A stretch of DNA of 64,000 nt from Margaritispora aquatica (lineage: Eukaryota > Ascomycota > Leotiomycetes > Helotiales > Discinellaceae): positions 558,001 through 622,000 of the forward strand of contig VJWN01000019.1 of assembly GCA_007644065.1 (NCBI GenBank), in the 5' to 3' direction. The notes below the pieces were generated by a model that saw nothing but the letters and a program-made list of their open reading frames with translations, was not told where the DNA came from and ran no database searches. Positions within the stretch are counted from its first letter, which is position 1, and the number at the start of each line of letters is the position of its first letter. A program made the translations under genes and the position numbers. Positions 3,182 through 58,963 of the stretch are shown here, in pieces.

Positions 3182-3718
3182 ATGCAAGTCATCATCACTC
3201 TTAGCATGGTTGTAGCTTTGCTCCCTGCGGCATTTGGAGCAGCACTTCCCAACACAAACATCAATATCATGATCAAGCTCTCTGTAGGTCTTTCAATTAG
3301 GATTTCGATGCATCGAATTTATACTGAACAAAATAGGATGATAACCTAGGCCATGACTCCGCTCAAGGGTTTCCACCAAAGCACCAGCTTACCACTTTAC
3401 CGCAAGCCGTTATCAAGCCACCTCGTATGCTACCCTAGGTTCAAATTCACCACGTTCTAAAGAATACGTTTCGAAGAATACACTGACACATAAATTTTGG
3501 GGACAGATTGCACAAATAGAAATCAGTGCGCTTGGTGGGAGATCTGCGAAGATGGAGAATGTGTGGATAGGGTTGATACTCTTCACCGTGAGGGTTTGAA
3601 ATTTCGTACGTCTTGAGATGGTCCTTAGAGATTGTCTTCATAGTGGCTATGAGCATGTGGGAGACATGACAACTGTGGTGCTGATGGGCATTGCTCCCAC
3701 AACGAGTGTATTTTCTAA
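3182..3718 (+). CDS. Small secreted cysteine-rich protein with duplicated four-Cys motif
   Basis: Four exons assembled by hand: 3182-3283, 3337-3424, 3507-3605 and 3654-3718. They total 354 nt, 117 residues. The first three junctions are canonical GT-AG; the last acceptor is GAG, a weaker form. Residues 1-20 form a signal peptide (MQVIITLSMVVALLPAAFGA). After a cysteine-free spacer come two motifs with identical spacing, C-x5-C-x5-C-x4-C: cysteines 65, 71, 77, 82 and 98, 104, 110, 115. The protein ends two residues after the last Cys. Size, secretion signal and cysteine content fit fungal small secreted proteins, including candidate effectors, but no function can be assigned. That reading phase and cysteine spacing both hold across three introns supports the model. 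Confidence 0.65.
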
Positions 3719-3894
3719 TACAATGGATGGGATTTTGAGTAGTTGCTCGCAGAAGAAGTACTTATGCGGTGCACATGATTTCCCATGTAGAAAAAGAAAA
3801 AAACCCAGAAAGGCGTAGATACACCCATAAGTTATCTGACGAAGTAATACATGTTTACTTGTAACTGACAAAGAACCCTGTTTCCACACCCACT

Positions 3895-52531: not shown

Positions 52532-53713
52532 GACGACGGTTGTATGTGTTGATGAGAAGGTTCGAAGGGAGTTGTGGTCGAGTCTTTAGAGTCTCGAGGG
52601 CGCAGCAAACAAAATGAAGTTCTGGGTTCAGGCGATGTTAGCGACCAGTCCCAAGCGGCTACGCCGAAACGAGAAGATGACGCAGGACTAGAATAGGAGG
52701 GAATGGTTGGATGTGAAGGTGCGACGTACTTTGAAGATCTGCGTCTATTTCTTCGTGCACGATGTTGTTGTAAGGTTTGGTAGAAGAGGATGGGAAGTTG
52801 AATACTTGTTAGGAATTGGGAAAGGAATGATTTTAAAGGTCGAGGATTTGAAGGAGCGATTGAGAACTGAATCGTTCAAGGCCCATGGAAGGCAGTGGCC
52901 GAGTTTTAGCGAGAGCCTTCCAGCCAGCCAGCCAGCCAGCCAGCAGTTTGTGATTCGATTCGAACAATGAATGATTTGGTTGATGATTGATGATTGATGA
53001 TTGATCAGCCGGAGATGACCTTTCGATACCTTATGACTCTTTGCTTGAAGACTTTGCTTGTGGTGTTAAATGGGAATTATTCTTCAATATCATCCTTTAA
53101 CCCAATCTTGCATCACAATCACCCCACTAAACTCCCACCCATTTTCTATCACTTCTAAGTAAATAAGTAAATAGCCACCCCCCGAATGCGGATCCTCATG
53201 TCTAGACATGTACATAATTTCCCGCTTCGAGCCTCGTACATTTGCCATCCCGAATGTGCCATATGGCTTTCATCCAAAGCTGAATACCGAGGGTATAAAC
53301 TTTGCCGGCATGTAGCCAGCCCAACGCCTCCCACTTTTGCCAATACTATGCCACCATACATTACTTCAAGCTATTCATATTTTTTTTACCTCGTACAAGG
53401 CTGATTTGATTGGGCCGCATCGTCGAAGTCTCAATGTTGTTTCTGGAAAAAAATATCTCATCCTTGACGATCTCGCCGTCAAAGACAAAAGACAAAGAAC
53501 TCGCAAAACAAACAGGAAGATGATGAAAGACATATTCCGAATTCGTGAAACAGTTGTCTTTGCAAGATTTGGTATGCTACATACACTTTCATAATTACGT
53601 TCAACTTTCAATCCAAGTTTAGCCATTTACCCCTGCTATTTAAGAACAGCTATGCGTCCGTCGCCAAATGCAGAGAAACACATTTACAGGAAAACTTTTG
53701 GAATCACAAAAGA
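52532..53713. other. Intergenic: ubc4 promoter and old dehydrogenase 3' flank
   Basis: The left part is the ubc4 promoter, with a CAGC tetranucleotide tract at 52919-52946 and TGATGAT-type repeats at 52978-53005. The right part, just before 53714, should be the original 3' untranslated region of the split glutaryl-CoA dehydrogenase gene. No other gene seen. Confidence 0.5.
52919..53005. repeat. CAGC and GATTGAT simple repeats
   Basis: Two short microsatellites: about six CAGC units (52919-52946) and four ATTGATG-like units (52978-53005) upstream of ubc4. Confidence 0.75.
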
Positions 53714-53774
53714 TTATACAAAAGCCTGCAGGCCAGTGATGGCTCTCCCAAGAATAAGAGCGTGAATATCAGAC
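53714..53774 (-). pseudogene. Orphan last exon of glutaryl-CoA dehydrogenase
   Basis: A 61-nt stretch reads, after one phase base, SDIHALILGRAITGLQAFV and stop. This is the C-terminus expected of glutaryl-CoA dehydrogenase, down to the QAF that human and fungal members share. It is preceded in the gene's direction by a branch-point-like GCTGAC and a 3' splice site ATGATAG, so it is a terminal exon whose upstream part is missing locally. An intron-like stretch of about 106 bases extends back to a GTACGT donor at 53880. The body of the gene lies 3.8 kb away at 57630-58963, where a second version of the tail is already attached. I infer this is the host's original last exon, cut off by the mobile element. 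Confidence 0.8.
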
Positions 53775-53928
53775 CTATCATTTGTCAGCACTATGAGGGA
53801 CAAATTTCTTAGTGCGACTACTTAGACTTATGAAGGACAAAACTCCATTTTCATCTTCTCTTCTTTGCCCCACAACGTACCCTTTTTACCCTTACTTCGA
53901 GCGCAGCGCGAGGGCAAGGGGTTTGGAG

Positions 53929-53944
53929 CCCCCCCCCCCCCCCC
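53929..53944. repeat. C16 homopolymer beside GC-rich left end of element
   Basis: A run of 16 C residues follows the GC-rich block TTCGAGCGCAGCGCGAGGGC and AAGGGGTTTGGAG (about 53896-53928). It stands out against the AT-rich surroundings, lies about 50 bases inside the inferred left end of the element, and could form G-rich secondary structure on the other strand. Confidence 0.85.
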
Positions 53945-54053
53945 AATCAACCAAAGAACGAAGGGAAGAGACGATCTATAGACGCTTATAATCTTCTACT
54001 GATAGTATATATATATCTTATTTAATTCCGTTCTTTCTAAAAGGCTAGAGGGT

Positions 54054-54065
54054 AAAAGTACTTTT
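54054..54065. repeat. AAAAGTACTTTT palindrome, copy 1
   Basis: Perfect 12-base palindrome about 170 bases inside the left end of the element and 440 bases before the recombinase start codon. Same core as copies 2-4. Confidence 0.75.
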
Positions 54066-54107
54066 GGATTAGAGAAACATTACGAATACATTATCAAGCG
54101 TTCCTTT

Positions 54108-54139
54108 TCTTCTTCTTCTTCTTCTTCTTCTTCTTCTTT
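54108..54139. repeat. CTT trinucleotide microsatellite
   Basis: About ten CTT units upstream of the recombinase gene, in its probable promoter. Confidence 0.85.
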
Positions 54140-54506
54140 GGCATGACCTACAGCTAGAGTCTAGAAGAACCTGCATTCAGATGAGAGGAGTGTTAGTTGG
54201 ATATTATGTGCTTTGATCTAGAGCTCTCTACTACTGTACAGGCTCTTTAGACTCTTCATTCCTATCTATTTCACCTACTGCTTCCTTACGTGATTCACCC
54301 CTATATTATTCCCCAAGGTGGTTCTATATACATAGGTAGAGCGTCGAAGACTCCCTCATAGTCGTTCCTTCCTTCTCGACCTTAGCCATGTCCCTCGACC
54401 GCCTGCCTTGGCCACCCACCTCCTCTTTCACCTGTCACCTTTCACCTTTTCTCAAGATACATCAAGTCAATGAACTCTTTCGCTACCACCCATCCCGTCA
54501 TTCCAG

Positions 54507-56508
54507 ATGGCTGATAATGACGACTTTAACTCCTCGGACATCGAGGTACCGGAACCCGCGCAGAACCCACGCTTCAAACTTCGAGGTGAAGAGAGTATCC
54601 GCGAGATCATCGAACACGCTCACGAGGACCGCGTGGCGAGCAAGGTCTTTGAGAAGTCACTCACGTTTAGACGAGGCGCCCCGCTGACGCAGACCACCCA
54701 AGCATTATGGTCCAACAGATTCGACGCTGTCCGACTGCATACGTTCAAACAAAGGTGAGGGAGATAAGAGATATATCCTCTCGACGAAAAAGTACTTTTG
54801 GGCTTCCTTGCTAACCTTGCATGCGTAGTCTGGACAAAGCTCCGACTGGTGAGACCCTGCGACGATTCGTCTTCGCTATGGCTGGACGCATCAAGAGCAA
54901 TATGCCGGGGAAGCCTGCACCTAACCTGAGGTGGCTGACAGATGGCTACCACCATGTCGTAGCCTATCTGCGTTTCAAGTATTCCGACTTTCGCTTAACC
55001 GCCCACGATGCAGAGCGAACAGCTTCCGCCTTCGATCAGCTCGTGAAAGAAGGAAGGCTTCTCAAAGGCCGCTGGAATAAACGTGCTTGGATTGGCTATA
55101 ATCTGACACTTAGATTAGTGTCATGGTATGATGCCTTTGACCCTACTGCGTGTCCGGCTTACTAAGGAAAGATTTCACAGCTTCTACGCTGATGCTATCA
55201 ACCATGGCTGTATTAATTTCGACACCATAGTCTCACGGGCCCTTTCGATGACGCTGATGGCAGCAGCTGGCAATCGATGCGGTGACATTGCTCAAGTTCT
55301 CGGCGGATTCGAAAAGTGCTTTGTGAGCTATAGTGATGTTACGTTGATGGTGTGGGAACCTGATCAAGACAATTCTCTCACGCCATCTGAACGGTCCTTC
55401 GAGCAAGTATATGCCAACCTGATTGCAAAGGTTGTGATCCGCTTTGCCAAAGGCCACAAGTGAGTCTACCGTTCAAAATTCTGGACACCGTCCAAGATTC
55501 TGGACAGCGTGCTGATATCATGACAGGGATACAGAAGGAGATGATTTCACCTTCGAATTAGCACCGCTGAACAATACCGAGGATAATCTGGCATGTCCAA
55601 TTGCAAACTTACTGGTCCTGGCCCTCAGATCTGGTCAAACCCACGGTACCACTATCGAGCAAATGTTGCAAAGTACTTTGGCCCGCCCTGACAAGACTGT
55701 GCAGTGGCGGGACCCCAAGTTGCCCCTCATACCTGCTATATCAAAGTCTCGCCGAGAACTTGAGTTCAGCACTCCCGCCACAACTGGACAGCTCTTACAA
55801 ACTGTCAAGCGAGCAGGGTTGTTAGGTGGTGTTACCGTTGGCCTCAAGTCCCATGGCTTTCGTCGTGGCCACTTCCAGGAGGTCGCACACCTGGGGAATG
55901 ATCTCGGCGGTGCTGCTTCTTACGCAGTGGCTCAAGCTGGCGGCCATAATCACAAGTCCATGACCCTTGGTATCACAGCAGAATACACCGGTGGAATAGA
56001 CCGACACCTCTATAACGACAGAGCTAAGTCGTCATATGCATCGCCTTTCGCGCCCAAAGTCGTAGCCGAATCATACATTGCAGCGAAACTGACCTCCAAG
56101 GAAATAGACGCCTACATCAAGGAAAATTCCTACGAGCCTAAGAGCAAGGCAGATCGAAACAAGTTTGCACGAGAGTTACGCTTGAAACGTCAAAAGGAAT
56201 GGATGGAGCGGCAGAGTGATAATGCTGGTAAGTCAGAACCTCAAAAAACCAATTGTCGACTTGCCCTTGTCATATGCTTATACCGATTAGCACCACTCAA
56301 GAACAAACTTGGCCCCGAAGGGAAGCCAGCAGAGGCGCTGGTTGACATGATTCTGCGTCGTCGTACGCAAAGCGAGTTGAATGTCAACAAGGCTCGATCA
56401 ACCTCGGAATATTTGAAACCAGCGTCTCCCATCACTCCGAATGGTGGGTCCTCATACATACCTATCGATCCACGTCTGTTACGCGATGGTGATGATGGCG
56501 ATGATGGC

Positions 56509-56545
<37 letters not shown>

Positions 56546-57502
56546 GCGATGCTGCAGAGCTCCTATCGCTAATGCTAGGCGTCTCTGCCAATAAACCCAA
56601 CAGTGGTGATGAAGGATTGGACACTGTCCTAACTCCAGAGGAAGAACGTCTCTCGTTGCAAAACGCCCCGCCGAGCGAGTCCATCGAGATGCTGCAATCC
56701 GACTCGCTCATTCTAATAAACAATCTCGCAGCCTTCAACATCGTCAAAGTCCAGAAGTTTGCAAGGGCTTGGCCCAAAGACACAGCTGCTATGGCTCTCT
56801 ACTCGACGTCTGGAAATTCACGGGACAACCCCTCGCCGTTCCTTTACCACTGTCAAAAGAGGGAAGGTTGTGGCTTCAAGTACCGCATTCGCGATACTGT
56901 AGCTAAACATGAGCTTTCTTGCACCCCCAAAGCTGTAGCAGACGCGGAAAAGCGACTGAGTGAGACGTGAGTCTATCGAGCCCCAAAGTACTTTTAGATC
57001 AGACCTGCTGACACCCATCTTTGCCTATAGTCTTGACGAGGAAACCTTCGTCTGCTGCGATATCACTATTGTTGGCAGACGGGCGCTCAAGCAGCACCGG
57101 AAAAGTCACGGCTGGACACCCGTTTCTTGTCCCCATGGATGCAGAAATGGCAAGCCATATGAAGCACGGGACAGTTACGATCGTCATATGTTGTCCTCCC
57201 ATGGAGACGGTACGTGGGTTGAGCGCCCTTGTCCGCTTTTCGATGCAAATATCGAGACCCAGGGCTGCGGAGAAGACGTATTGTTCGATGCTCCCGGAAA
57301 GTTGTCGTACCATCTTCAGCGGCGCCACAACCTTAGCTCTGATGCCATACAGCAATACGTCAACACGAGAAAGAGGCCAGCGAAGTCGGCAGAGTTTGTC
57401 AACTCTGAGGATGAGGAGGAAGATGTGGATGTACAGGCCCCCACAAAGAAGCGCTATATGTCCAGGAAGCTGGCAAGTTTGAATGAAAAAGGAGGACTTT
57501 AA
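54507..57502 (+). CDS. Tyrosine recombinase with C-terminal zinc fingers
   Basis: Six exons: 54507-54754, 54829-55125, 55181-55459, 55527-56227, 56291-56966, 57031-57502, total 2673 nt, 890 residues, no stops or frame breaks. An N-terminal helical core-binding domain (about 80-185) precedes the catalytic domain. Box I Arg is in AAGNRCGDIAQVL (about 213). A Lys candidate lies in RFAKGHKD. Box II is SHGFRRGHF (H-x-x-R, about 383), with AGGHNHKSM (His about 414) and nucleophile Tyr in ITAEYTGG (about 427). A basic linker, an Asp run coded by GAT repeats (about 595-615), then four Cys/His groups: CQKREGCGFKYRIRDT, CCDITIVGRRALKQHRKSHG, CPHGCRNGKPYEARDSYDRH and CPLF...HLQRRHN. The last acts as DNA-binding fingers by inference. 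Intron 4 (63 nt) is a multiple of three and could be retained. Related to Crypton and Starship-captain recombinases, exact family unclear. Convergent with the dehydrogenase. Confidence 0.85.
54788..54799. repeat. AAAAGTACTTTT palindrome, copy 2
   Basis: Perfect copy in the middle of intron 1 of the recombinase gene (54755-54828), not needed for splicing. Confidence 0.75.
56985..56995. repeat. AAAGTACTTTT palindrome, copy 3
   Basis: Eleven of twelve bases of the same palindrome, inside intron 5 of the recombinase gene (56967-57030). Confidence 0.7.
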
Positions 57503-57600
57503 AGGTTCGGACAGCGTCCATGCTCGCACGAGCCAAGAATCTTTGTAAACACACCTTGCTCATACATCCTATCGAGTACAATATTGAGTTCGCGGCTTCA

Positions 57601-57614
57601 AAAAGTACTTTTTA
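57601..57614. repeat. AAAAAGTACTTTTT palindrome, copy 4
   Basis: Extended 14-base perfect palindrome in the 127-base gap between the stop codons of the recombinase and the dehydrogenase, about 15 bases from the substitute tail at the right end of the element. With copy 1 it brackets the recombinase gene. Confidence 0.75.
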
Positions 57615-57629
57615 GCAATATAACTATAG

Positions 57630-58963
57630 CTAGTAGAACCCCTGGATCCCAGTGATTGCACGACCTAAGATCAACGCGTGAATGTCTGACTGGCCTTCGT
57701 ACACACACGTCACAAACAAATTCGCCACATGCCTTCCAATGCCATATTCATCACTTACAGCATTACCTCCAAAAACCTCCTGCAAAATCCGAGCGTTGAC
57801 TAGAGCACGATCACAGTTTTGCCTCTTAATCATACTGATCATCTCTGGTGCCGCTTCTCCCTTGTCCTTGAGTCTTCCAACCTGTACAGCAGCCAATGTA
57901 CCAAAAGCAGCATCAGTCGTTGCATCCGCTAGCTTTTTCTGCACAAGCTGGTACTTGGCTATTGGATTTCCCTTGAACTGCTTTCTCTCTAGTGTGTATG
58001 TCCTCGCTCGGTTAATGCAATCTTCCAAAGCACCCATGGTTCCCCAAGCGATACCATACCTAGCACTGTTGAGACATGTAAAAGGACCCCTGAGACCTTC
58101 AACATCCGGGAACATGTTGGCCATTGGCACAGGACACTCGTCTAGCTGGATCATACCAGTAAGTGATGCTCTGAGACCGTTCTTATTTTTGATGGGTGGT
58201 GTCTCCAAGGTTCCTGGTGGACACTCTGATCTCTCAATCAAGAAACCCCTAATTTTGCCAGTCTCCTGGAGCTTCGCCCAGACCATCAATACATCTGCTA
58301 TAGGAGAGTTCGTAATCCATGTTTTGGCTCCAGAAATAGAATAGTATCCTTTCTTCGTAGGATGTGGTTTGGCCGTAGTTTCCATAGATCCAGGATCACT
58401 TCCATGATTTGGCTCTGTCAACCCAAAGGCTCCCAACAACTTGCCCTTCGCCAGCTTAGGTAGAAACTTGTCCTTCTGCTCTTGTGTTCCAAACTCATCA
58501 ATGCCACCCATCACCAAGGAGGATTGTACAGACATGCCAGACCTGTAACCACTATCCACTCTTTCCACAGCCTTCGTGATCAGCCCCGAGGCAACATTCG
58601 ATACGCCAGCACAGTCGTATCCCTGGATTGTAGCGCCAAGTAGGCCCAACTCGCCCATCTCTTCTAGGATCTTTCTGTCATAATTCTCAATTCGATATGC
58701 CTCTAATTGAACAGTAATTAGTAAGAGCATTCAACCGGCACATTCGACTAACCCAGCACTCGAGGCAGCATTCGCTCTTGACAATATGCCTCTGCCGTCT
58801 CTGAAATAGCGAGTTCCTCCTCCGTAAACAGACTTTTGGCATTTAGAGGGTCCTGCCAGTCAAATGGTTGCGGGGTCGCGTGAGCTGCGAAGCCTCTAAC
58901 AGCTACTGGGCGAGCAGCAGAGGTCAATTGGGTTGCAGTACTTCGAATGGCAGATCTATACAT
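57630..58963 (-). CDS. Glutaryl-CoA dehydrogenase, mitochondrial
   Basis: FAD enzyme oxidising and decarboxylating glutaryl-CoA to crotonyl-CoA in lysine and tryptophan breakdown, in the mitochondrial matrix. Exons 58963-58753 and 58702-57630, 1284 nt, 427 residues. The start MYRSAIRSTATQLTSAARPV gives a basic targeting peptide; the mature part begins FDWQDPLNAKSLFTEEEL. Family marks: GYDCAGVSNVASGLI, FGLTEPNHGSDPGSMET, SGAKTWITNSPIADVLMVWA, RYGIAWGTMGALEDC, KQFKGNPIAKYQLVQKKLAD, ILQEVFGGNAVSDEYGIGRH, and the catalytic Glu in CVYEGQSDIHALILGRAITG. The last 61 nt, from the second base after GAAGGCCA to the stop, duplicate the orphan exon at 53714-53774 at protein level. They are inferred to belong to the inserted element. 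The end GIQGFY departs from the usual QAF terminus. Otherwise intact, so probably functional. Confidence 0.93.

Follow-up and report, generated by a model that had tools for sequence, protein, structure and literature searches.

The glutaryl-CoA dehydrogenase (GCDH) gene was analysed in a stretch of 64,000 nucleotides from Margaritispora aquatica (contig VJWN01000019.1, positions 558,001 to 622,000; the whole stretch is called the window). The gene is chimeric. Its native 3′ end lies displaced by 3.9 kb, and an intact tyrosine recombinase (YR) gene is found between the two. Comparison of the sequences supports the conclusion that GCDH has been cut off from its native 3′ end by the insert, which provides an in-frame substitute. 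A first-pass annotation of the same DNA had proposed a mobile element that replaces the ending of the host gene it enters, and this core reading is probably correct. The explanation that we modestly favour is that a YR-encoding variant of the WHO kind of homing element, known from yeasts, entered the 3′ end of GCDH by WHO-like homing. Genome searches covered 42.4 Mb in 49 contigs.

The chimeric GCDH gene occupies 57630..58963 on the minus strand. Its two exons (58963-58753 and 58702-57630, separated by an intron at 58752-58703) form a full reading frame of 427 aa, in which the near tail described in the first-pass annotation (57690-57630, minus strand) is in frame as claimed. Read from the sequence, the near tail is G followed by SDIHALILGRAITGIQGFY, and the far tail (53774-53714, minus strand) is G followed by SDIHALILGRAITGLQAFV. 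These are indeed two versions of the terminal GCDH exon flanking a recombinase gene. They are identical at 39 of 61 nt and at 16 of 19 residues (17 of 20 codon positions agree in meaning when the stop is included). Five of the 20 codons are the same, and 11 of the 16 shared residues are written with different codons; the earlier counts of matching residues and silent differences were reproduced. In a translated comparison of the two flanks the tail pair scored 87 and the next best pair 41, so the similarity is not a matter of chance. A genome search with the tail as query gave these two places alone and no third site. Upstream of the far tail, TGCTGAC is followed after 7 nt by AG in the correct phase. 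Judged by the fungal consensus, these are a good branch point and acceptor; the branch point, ATAG acceptor and phase noted before for the far copy are therefore present.

The YR gene lies at 54507..57502 on the plus strand and is oriented toward the 3′ end of GCDH, which is on the opposite strand. It is the only complete gene recognised between the tails. Six exons predicted from splice signals and reading frame (54507-54754, 54829-55125, 55181-55459, 55527-56227, 56291-56966 and 57031-57502) encode 890 aa. The catalytic R, K, HxxR, H and Y set was found in an alignment with seven relatives (P0001-P0003 and the loci L048-L051), of which L051 is without the R and K region and the P0001 record without HxxR. 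The gene can thus be called complete, as it had been. Among the relatives, DUF3435 was matched by P0003 with 25.3 bits (cut-off 25.8) and by the paralogue L049 with an E-value of 0.0019, and Phage_integrase weakly by L050; all Pfam hits of the YR relatives were below the curated cut-offs. A zinc-finger family was matched by the last YR exon alone at E 0.14 and by the paralogue L048 at E 0.0002. The window YR is probably DUF3435-like, with a Cys/His-rich (probably zinc-finger) tail. No Pfam match to intein, LAGLIDADG or GCR1_C was obtained in the whole window YR at E up to 1, and a profile search of PDB with the YR gave no match at E up to 1. Rfam gave no match in the insert, and no relatives of the YR were confirmed in IMG/VR. 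The protein search with the YR gave at least three matches, among the 8000 candidates scored; low-complexity words may have crowded this search, and the scarcity of further relatives says little. The genome holds four other YR matches (L048-L051), 29-34% identical to the window YR, which itself looks like a single-copy gene. One copy, with the other YRs at this distance, argues for a homing gene rather than a multicopy transposon.

The relatives and the neighbouring gene indicate which tail is native. The proteins closest to the window GCDH are Leotiomycete sequences or kin; over the GCDH body, 342 of 359 residues are identical to P0005, 341 to P0004 and 337 to P0006 (Cadophora). A set of 189 relatives combined the best 120 of 7969 in whole-protein similarity with 69 new ones that ranked within the best 120 of 820 when tails were compared. 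QTYEGQ precedes SDIH in 182 of the 189. The remaining seven carry CV (three), AV (one) or AT (three) in place of QT; two of them are among the 120 from the whole-protein search and five among the 69 added by the tail search. The window GCDH reads CVYEGQ, with C403 and V404 at codons 403-404, and ends in IQGFY. At the protein level its body kin carry QT with LQAFV or IQAFV ends, and the far tail matches P0006 and P0009 at 19 of 19 residues. Beyond the far tail, on the same strand as GCDH, stand two exons of a ubiquitin-conjugating enzyme gene (UBC, 52005-51633). The same GCDH-UBC order is indicated for Hyaloscypha (P0059), Scytalidium (P0094) and Choiromyces (P0133), since protein records from these fungi fuse both. 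As the kin-type far tail keeps the UBC neighbour, it is taken to be the native end and the near tail the newcomer. On these comparisons the native GCDH end is displaced and replaced by a substitute end, and the far tail (53714..53774) is the displaced terminal exon, of the LQAFV type. That the recombinase insert brings its own in-frame 3′ end agrees with the kin-type far tail beside UBC and with a near type foreign to the closest kin.

Ends of the near-tail type also close the full-length GCDHs P0015 and P0018 and a record of 342 aa, P0124. A non-QT pair goes with a terminal Y (4 of 7 rows, against 4 of 176 QT rows; Fisher p 5.1e-5). With P0127 counted, which the first pattern had left unread, the fractions are 4/7 and 5/177 (p 8.9e-5); in both tests the rows are related to each other and partly selected by tail. 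Cadophora sp. MPI-SDFR-AT-0126 has, besides the ordinary P0006, a second GCDH (P0126) with a CV..AFY end. The body of P0126 is nearest to a Chaenotheca sequence (301 of 357 residues), and it is possible that P0126 is a transferred gene.

Since the second GCDH of Cadophora means that donors of such ends exist, and YR genes are also found at unrelated places in the M. aquatica genome, an account without any mobile replacement has to be weighed. By this account the near tail would be the host's own diverged end or the result of conversion by a paralogue, the far exon a leftover of local duplication, and the YR between them unrelated. We consider it improbable. It is the far tail and not the near one that resembles the kin and has UBC beside it. 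The M. aquatica genome yielded no second GCDH (the next match by E-value is 35% identical), and the gap holds the YR as its only complete recognised gene.

In another alternative the YR would reside in a giant intron of 3.9 kb; splicing of GCDH would join GGCCA|GTCAGA to the far exon, and the near tail would be a read-through end. The far acceptor is good, and the five GIY-YIG-like zinc-finger genes of this genome (see below) lie between coding parts of conserved genes, two of them in introns with canonical borders. GTCAGA, however, is unlike the five donors of the YR gene, and the near tail keeps frame and stop through 11 silent codon changes. Near-type tails moreover end the full-length P0015 and P0018 as well as P0124. 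Splicing across the insert is the least probable of the explanations weighed here, and very improbable.

The joint that had been assigned at GGCCA|GT (codon 408) is not supported. C403 and V404 are odd in comparison with the relatives and lie upstream of that point; most likely the foreign stretch begins at codon 403 or earlier. The smallest foreign segment at the 3′ end of GCDH would then be 57630..57707 (minus strand), comprising CVYEGQ and SDIHALILGRAITGIQGFY*, codons 403-427 plus the stop. On the far side, a 172-bp stretch (53808..53979) has one further copy found in the genome, at C19, and the two agree in 140 of 172 alignment columns. The stretch shows no break at 53880 against the C19 copy, which reads TTACGT where the window has GTACGT. 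The GTACGT named as donor is present at 53880, but its role as a native donor is doubtful, as it lies inside the repeat, and the left edge of the insert is uncertain because the repeat crosses this position. The unbroken C19 repeat and the CV at codons 403-404 both argue against the candidate joint GGCCA|GTACGT. A native intron of 106 nt had also been proposed. It is not supported either, since the repeat crosses its donor and the last intron comes after SDIH, not before, in P0019, P0034 and P0094, as read from read-through or mis-spliced ends of these records. The look of a native intron is probably limited to the 33 nt adjoining the far exon (53775..53807, minus strand), which are outside the 172-bp repeat and contain the good TGCTGAC branch point and the ATAG acceptor. 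The pattern expected of an empty site does not occur in this genome, a necessary outcome if the sole copy is filled. The 5′ flank of the YR gene (53980..54506) contains part of a high-copy repeat at 54216-54301, which accounts for 38 of the 39 other genome places listed. The second copy of the 172-bp repeat (C19:408000-408164) is 81% identical and by eye is without a target-site duplication.

A complete YR gene between direct repeats of the target's 3′ end is also what site-specific integration would leave. A circular element with a GCDH-like attachment site would have recombined through its YR, and the host tail would have been left at the far end. Bacterial elements integrate at the 3′ ends of tRNA genes, and the first-pass annotation had drawn this parallel. 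Integration of islands at the 3′ ends of bacterial protein genes is likewise reported, for example for PAISt at bacA (PMC4057263), and site-specific entry at a gene's 3′ end is the likeness with the window. The parallel is possible, but bacterial integrative elements exchange at a short identical core and the longest identical run common to the two tails is 8 nt (ATTCACGC and ATCACTGG). No direct repeat joining the two ends was found in a repeat search over 53600-57800 with a minimum length of 14. In addition, the foreign residues begin upstream of the shared stretch, host sequence is unaccounted for at the far side, and the joint of the first-pass annotation falls inside the 172-bp repeat. 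Integration of a circle is thus rated as possible yet clearly less probable than WHO-like homing, which is the reading preferred.

In Torulaspora and Lachancea yeasts, FBA1 receives a new 3′ end from WHO elements, and its old one persists as a remnant (Coughlan et al. 2020; passages of PMC7282813); the earlier remark that no fungal element was known to do this overlooks them. In the model given in those passages, a nuclease cuts the sensitive FBA1 allele and repair copies the WHO-bearing allele. The outcome is a gene that keeps its own 5′ part and gains a resistant 3′ part, with the old 3′ part beyond the WHO gene. The same source describes conflicting 5′ and 3′ histories of FBA1 under repeated replacement, and reports that some Kazachstania with WHO remnants have an FBA1 intron where cleavage is inferred to occur.

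The order in the window fits that of WHO elements, since a full-length chimera, a selfish gene, a native 3′ fragment and UBC follow each other in series. By WHO-like homing, a one-gene selfish element would have entered the 3′ end of GCDH, and at least the last 25 GCDH codons would have been replaced by the element's own diverged copy, leaving the native last exon now 3.9 kb away. On an empty allele, the YR would break GCDH within the conserved region that surrounds the catalytic-Glu codons. Repair would then copy the element-bearing allele, and the YR gene would be passed on along with a tail so diverged that it escapes renewed cutting. The different codons at 11 of the 16 shared residues would confer this resistance to the element's own enzyme. 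The host enzyme would stay functional, and the old end would be left as a fragment. Gene conversion is favoured over exchange at a short core because the foreign segment starts upstream of the part that the tails share.

The likeness to WHO extends to a selfish gene that adjoins a conserved metabolic gene (WHO genes do so in both orientations), to a replaced 3′ end with the old fragment beyond, and to the conflict of 5′ and 3′ histories, seen for FBA1 and for GCDH. WHO proteins have a zinc-finger tail, and a zinc finger is weakly indicated in the window YR. The differences are those that would make the element new. A DUF3435-like YR stands where WHO has an intein-like LAGLIDADG nuclease, GCDH is targeted instead of FBA1, and the host is a filamentous ascomycete and not a yeast. 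WHO fragments are of about 400 bp, whereas the part replaced here may be short, with its minimum of 25 codons.

Recurrence of the odd ends was followed on a tree of the GCDH body without the tail. The tree was made from 74 of the 186 rows that were long enough, with all non-QT rows kept; it was built by a quick method with an arbitrarily chosen outgroup, and 27 of its 70 inner branches are unsupported. The QT, CV-or-AV and AT states need at least seven changes on this tree. The window GCDH groups with two QT rows (support 96) and P0018 (Xylogone sp. PMI_703) with the QT row P0094 (support 100). Further CV or AV cases are P0015, P0124 and P0126, and AT cases are P0125 and P0130/P0132. Odd GCDH ends thus appear to recur in separate lineages, as WHO-like homing predicts. 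From the protein-level evidence, a YR gene would be predicted beside the other odd-ended GCDHs.

Several points weigh against the homing account. A Pfam search with the whole 890-aa YR, at E up to 1, matched no recombinase and no zinc-finger family. YRs normally join strands without a free double-strand break, and a homing break made by a YR is a proposal. The upstream part of the far fragment (QTYEGQ plus donor) was not seen, and one joint is therefore missing. The independent-pairs test, with four starred pairs, gave p 0.25, the pairs being too few to reach 0.05, and five of the seven non-QT rows were added by the search that picks relatives for the likeness of their tails. The QT to CV change may be convergent, the odd ends being known from protein records. 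Around the four other YRs, the flanks compared (a few kb to either side) show no duplicated tail; their top scores of 38-60, next to the 87 of the window, are taken as noise or low-complexity sequence. The YR of L048, moreover, seems to sit in a broken transporter gene. Recombinase homologues lacking the tail had been named beforehand as an observation that would speak against the proposal. They exist in the same genome, all at 29-34% identity to the window YR. These paralogues weigh against a tail in every such YR and less against the tail found here.

Two other kinds of fungal YR element were compared. Starship captains are DUF3435 YRs (passages of PMC12134995), the family match here being made through the relatives P0003 and L049. 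Starships are described in the same passages as large cargo carriers, unlike the insert of about 3.9 kb with one recognised gene. Cryptons have a small one-gene layout. They share with the window element a YR gene in a fungal element (passages of PMC3212892). They differ in the GCR1_C domain, which Pfam did not find in the window YR at E up to 1, and the Crypton passages of PMC3212892 mention no host 3′ end. A YR replacing the 3′ end of a fungal gene is not described in the titles and abstract openings of the open-licence papers listed, and no homing element with GCDH was found in the open-licence literature.

If the homing account is true, the window holds a second, apparently independent case of the WHO lifestyle with an enzyme of a different class, and carrying one's own replacement gene ending would be a general lifestyle of selfish DNA in conserved genes. 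Discordant gene ends in fungal phylogenies would likewise find an explanation. An element with a replacement tail would be nature's equivalent of a gene drive that carries a recoded rescue, and the question is raised whether a tyrosine recombinase can drive homing.

Five genes that we take to be GIY-YIG-like, by a motif visible in the sequences and not by a profile match, were found in the genome, each with a zinc finger and all between coding parts of conserved genes. They are located at L052 3963-5435 (C23), L055 4725-6014 (C2), L057 1204-2322 and L058 1240-2334 (both C45), and L059 1156-2385 (C1). The hosts are a helicase with DEAD and Helicase_C domains, which we presume to be DED1-like, the ATP synthase beta subunit (ATP2), pyruvate carboxylase, clathrin heavy chain (with Clathrin repeats) and a GCN1-like HEAT protein. 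Canonical intron borders surround the gene in ATP2 and in pyruvate carboxylase. In the DED1-like gene a search within 6 nt of the expected joint gave no GT..AG pair; the far insert border there (L052, about 3790-3810, minus strand) reads TTATCGGGACTTGAC, with no AG acceptor at that distance. Pfam gave no GIY-YIG match in these genes. A profile of the five proteins matched PDB in the zinc-finger part, with no match elsewhere among the 60 of 236 sequences listed. By sequence, they resemble homing genes of the nucleus that reside in spliceosomal introns. In Ustilago maydis one nuclear GIY-YIG insertion is described (PMC7593156).

A pattern search of the 64-kb window gave five AAAGTACTTT palindromes (starts 54055, 54789, 55670, 56985 and 57602; span 54055..57611), all inside the insert and two near its ends. 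The only matched sequence found near both insert ends is a 15-nt inverted pair around AAAAGTACTTTT palindromes (54054-54068 and 57598-57612). AAAAGTACTTTT is present at 20 places in the genome, against eight for the reversed control pattern, and some of its sites adjoin the YR L049 (C23) and the GIY-YIG-like genes L052 (DED1) and L055 (ATP2). The loci of three of the five GIY-YIG-like genes and of three of the four other YRs are without AAAGTACTTT. A common palindrome system is therefore only a lead. Clusters of AAAGTACTTT were seen in selfish-gene loci (window, L049, L052, L053 and L055), and L053 (C46) has three AAAGTACTTT sites without a YR or GIY-like match. Taken tentatively, and as a doubtful extension, the two kinds of gene could form a guild of nuclear homing genes in filamentous fungi, many of them zinc-finger-tailed, that settle in conserved genes and leave these intact. 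Its members would be YRs that exchange a 3′ end for a diverged tail resistant to cutting (in GCDH, and more than once within the Leotiomycetes), together with GIY-YIG-like genes residing in introns of DED1, ATP2, pyruvate carboxylase, clathrin heavy chain and the GCN1-like gene, some of them sharing AAAAGTACTTTT; the GCDH element would be the first natural YR-driven homing element.

The surroundings of the other YRs differ from locus to locus. In L048 (2570-7711) a transporter gene is apparently split by the YR, with an MFS domain on one side only and the other half read by eye. The first YR exon there was not found by motif, and the N-terminal transporter half ends in a short unrelated tail. 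The L049 YR is 0.5 kb from a U6 snRNA gene (Rfam match 3452-3557; locus 3452-3640), and by eye the sequence further upstream of the match suggests that the U6 gene may hold an intron. The L050 YR adjoins the 3′ end of another gene, which by eye we take to be TMA22/DENR, convergent as in the window; a second tail was not seen there. L051 is a YR fragment. A second palindrome, GGACNNNGTCC, was counted in or beside YR genes, at 55483, 56619 and 57509 in the window and at 3429, 4107 and 5529 in L048, as an observed count only. One of the window copies stands directly after the stop codon of the YR.

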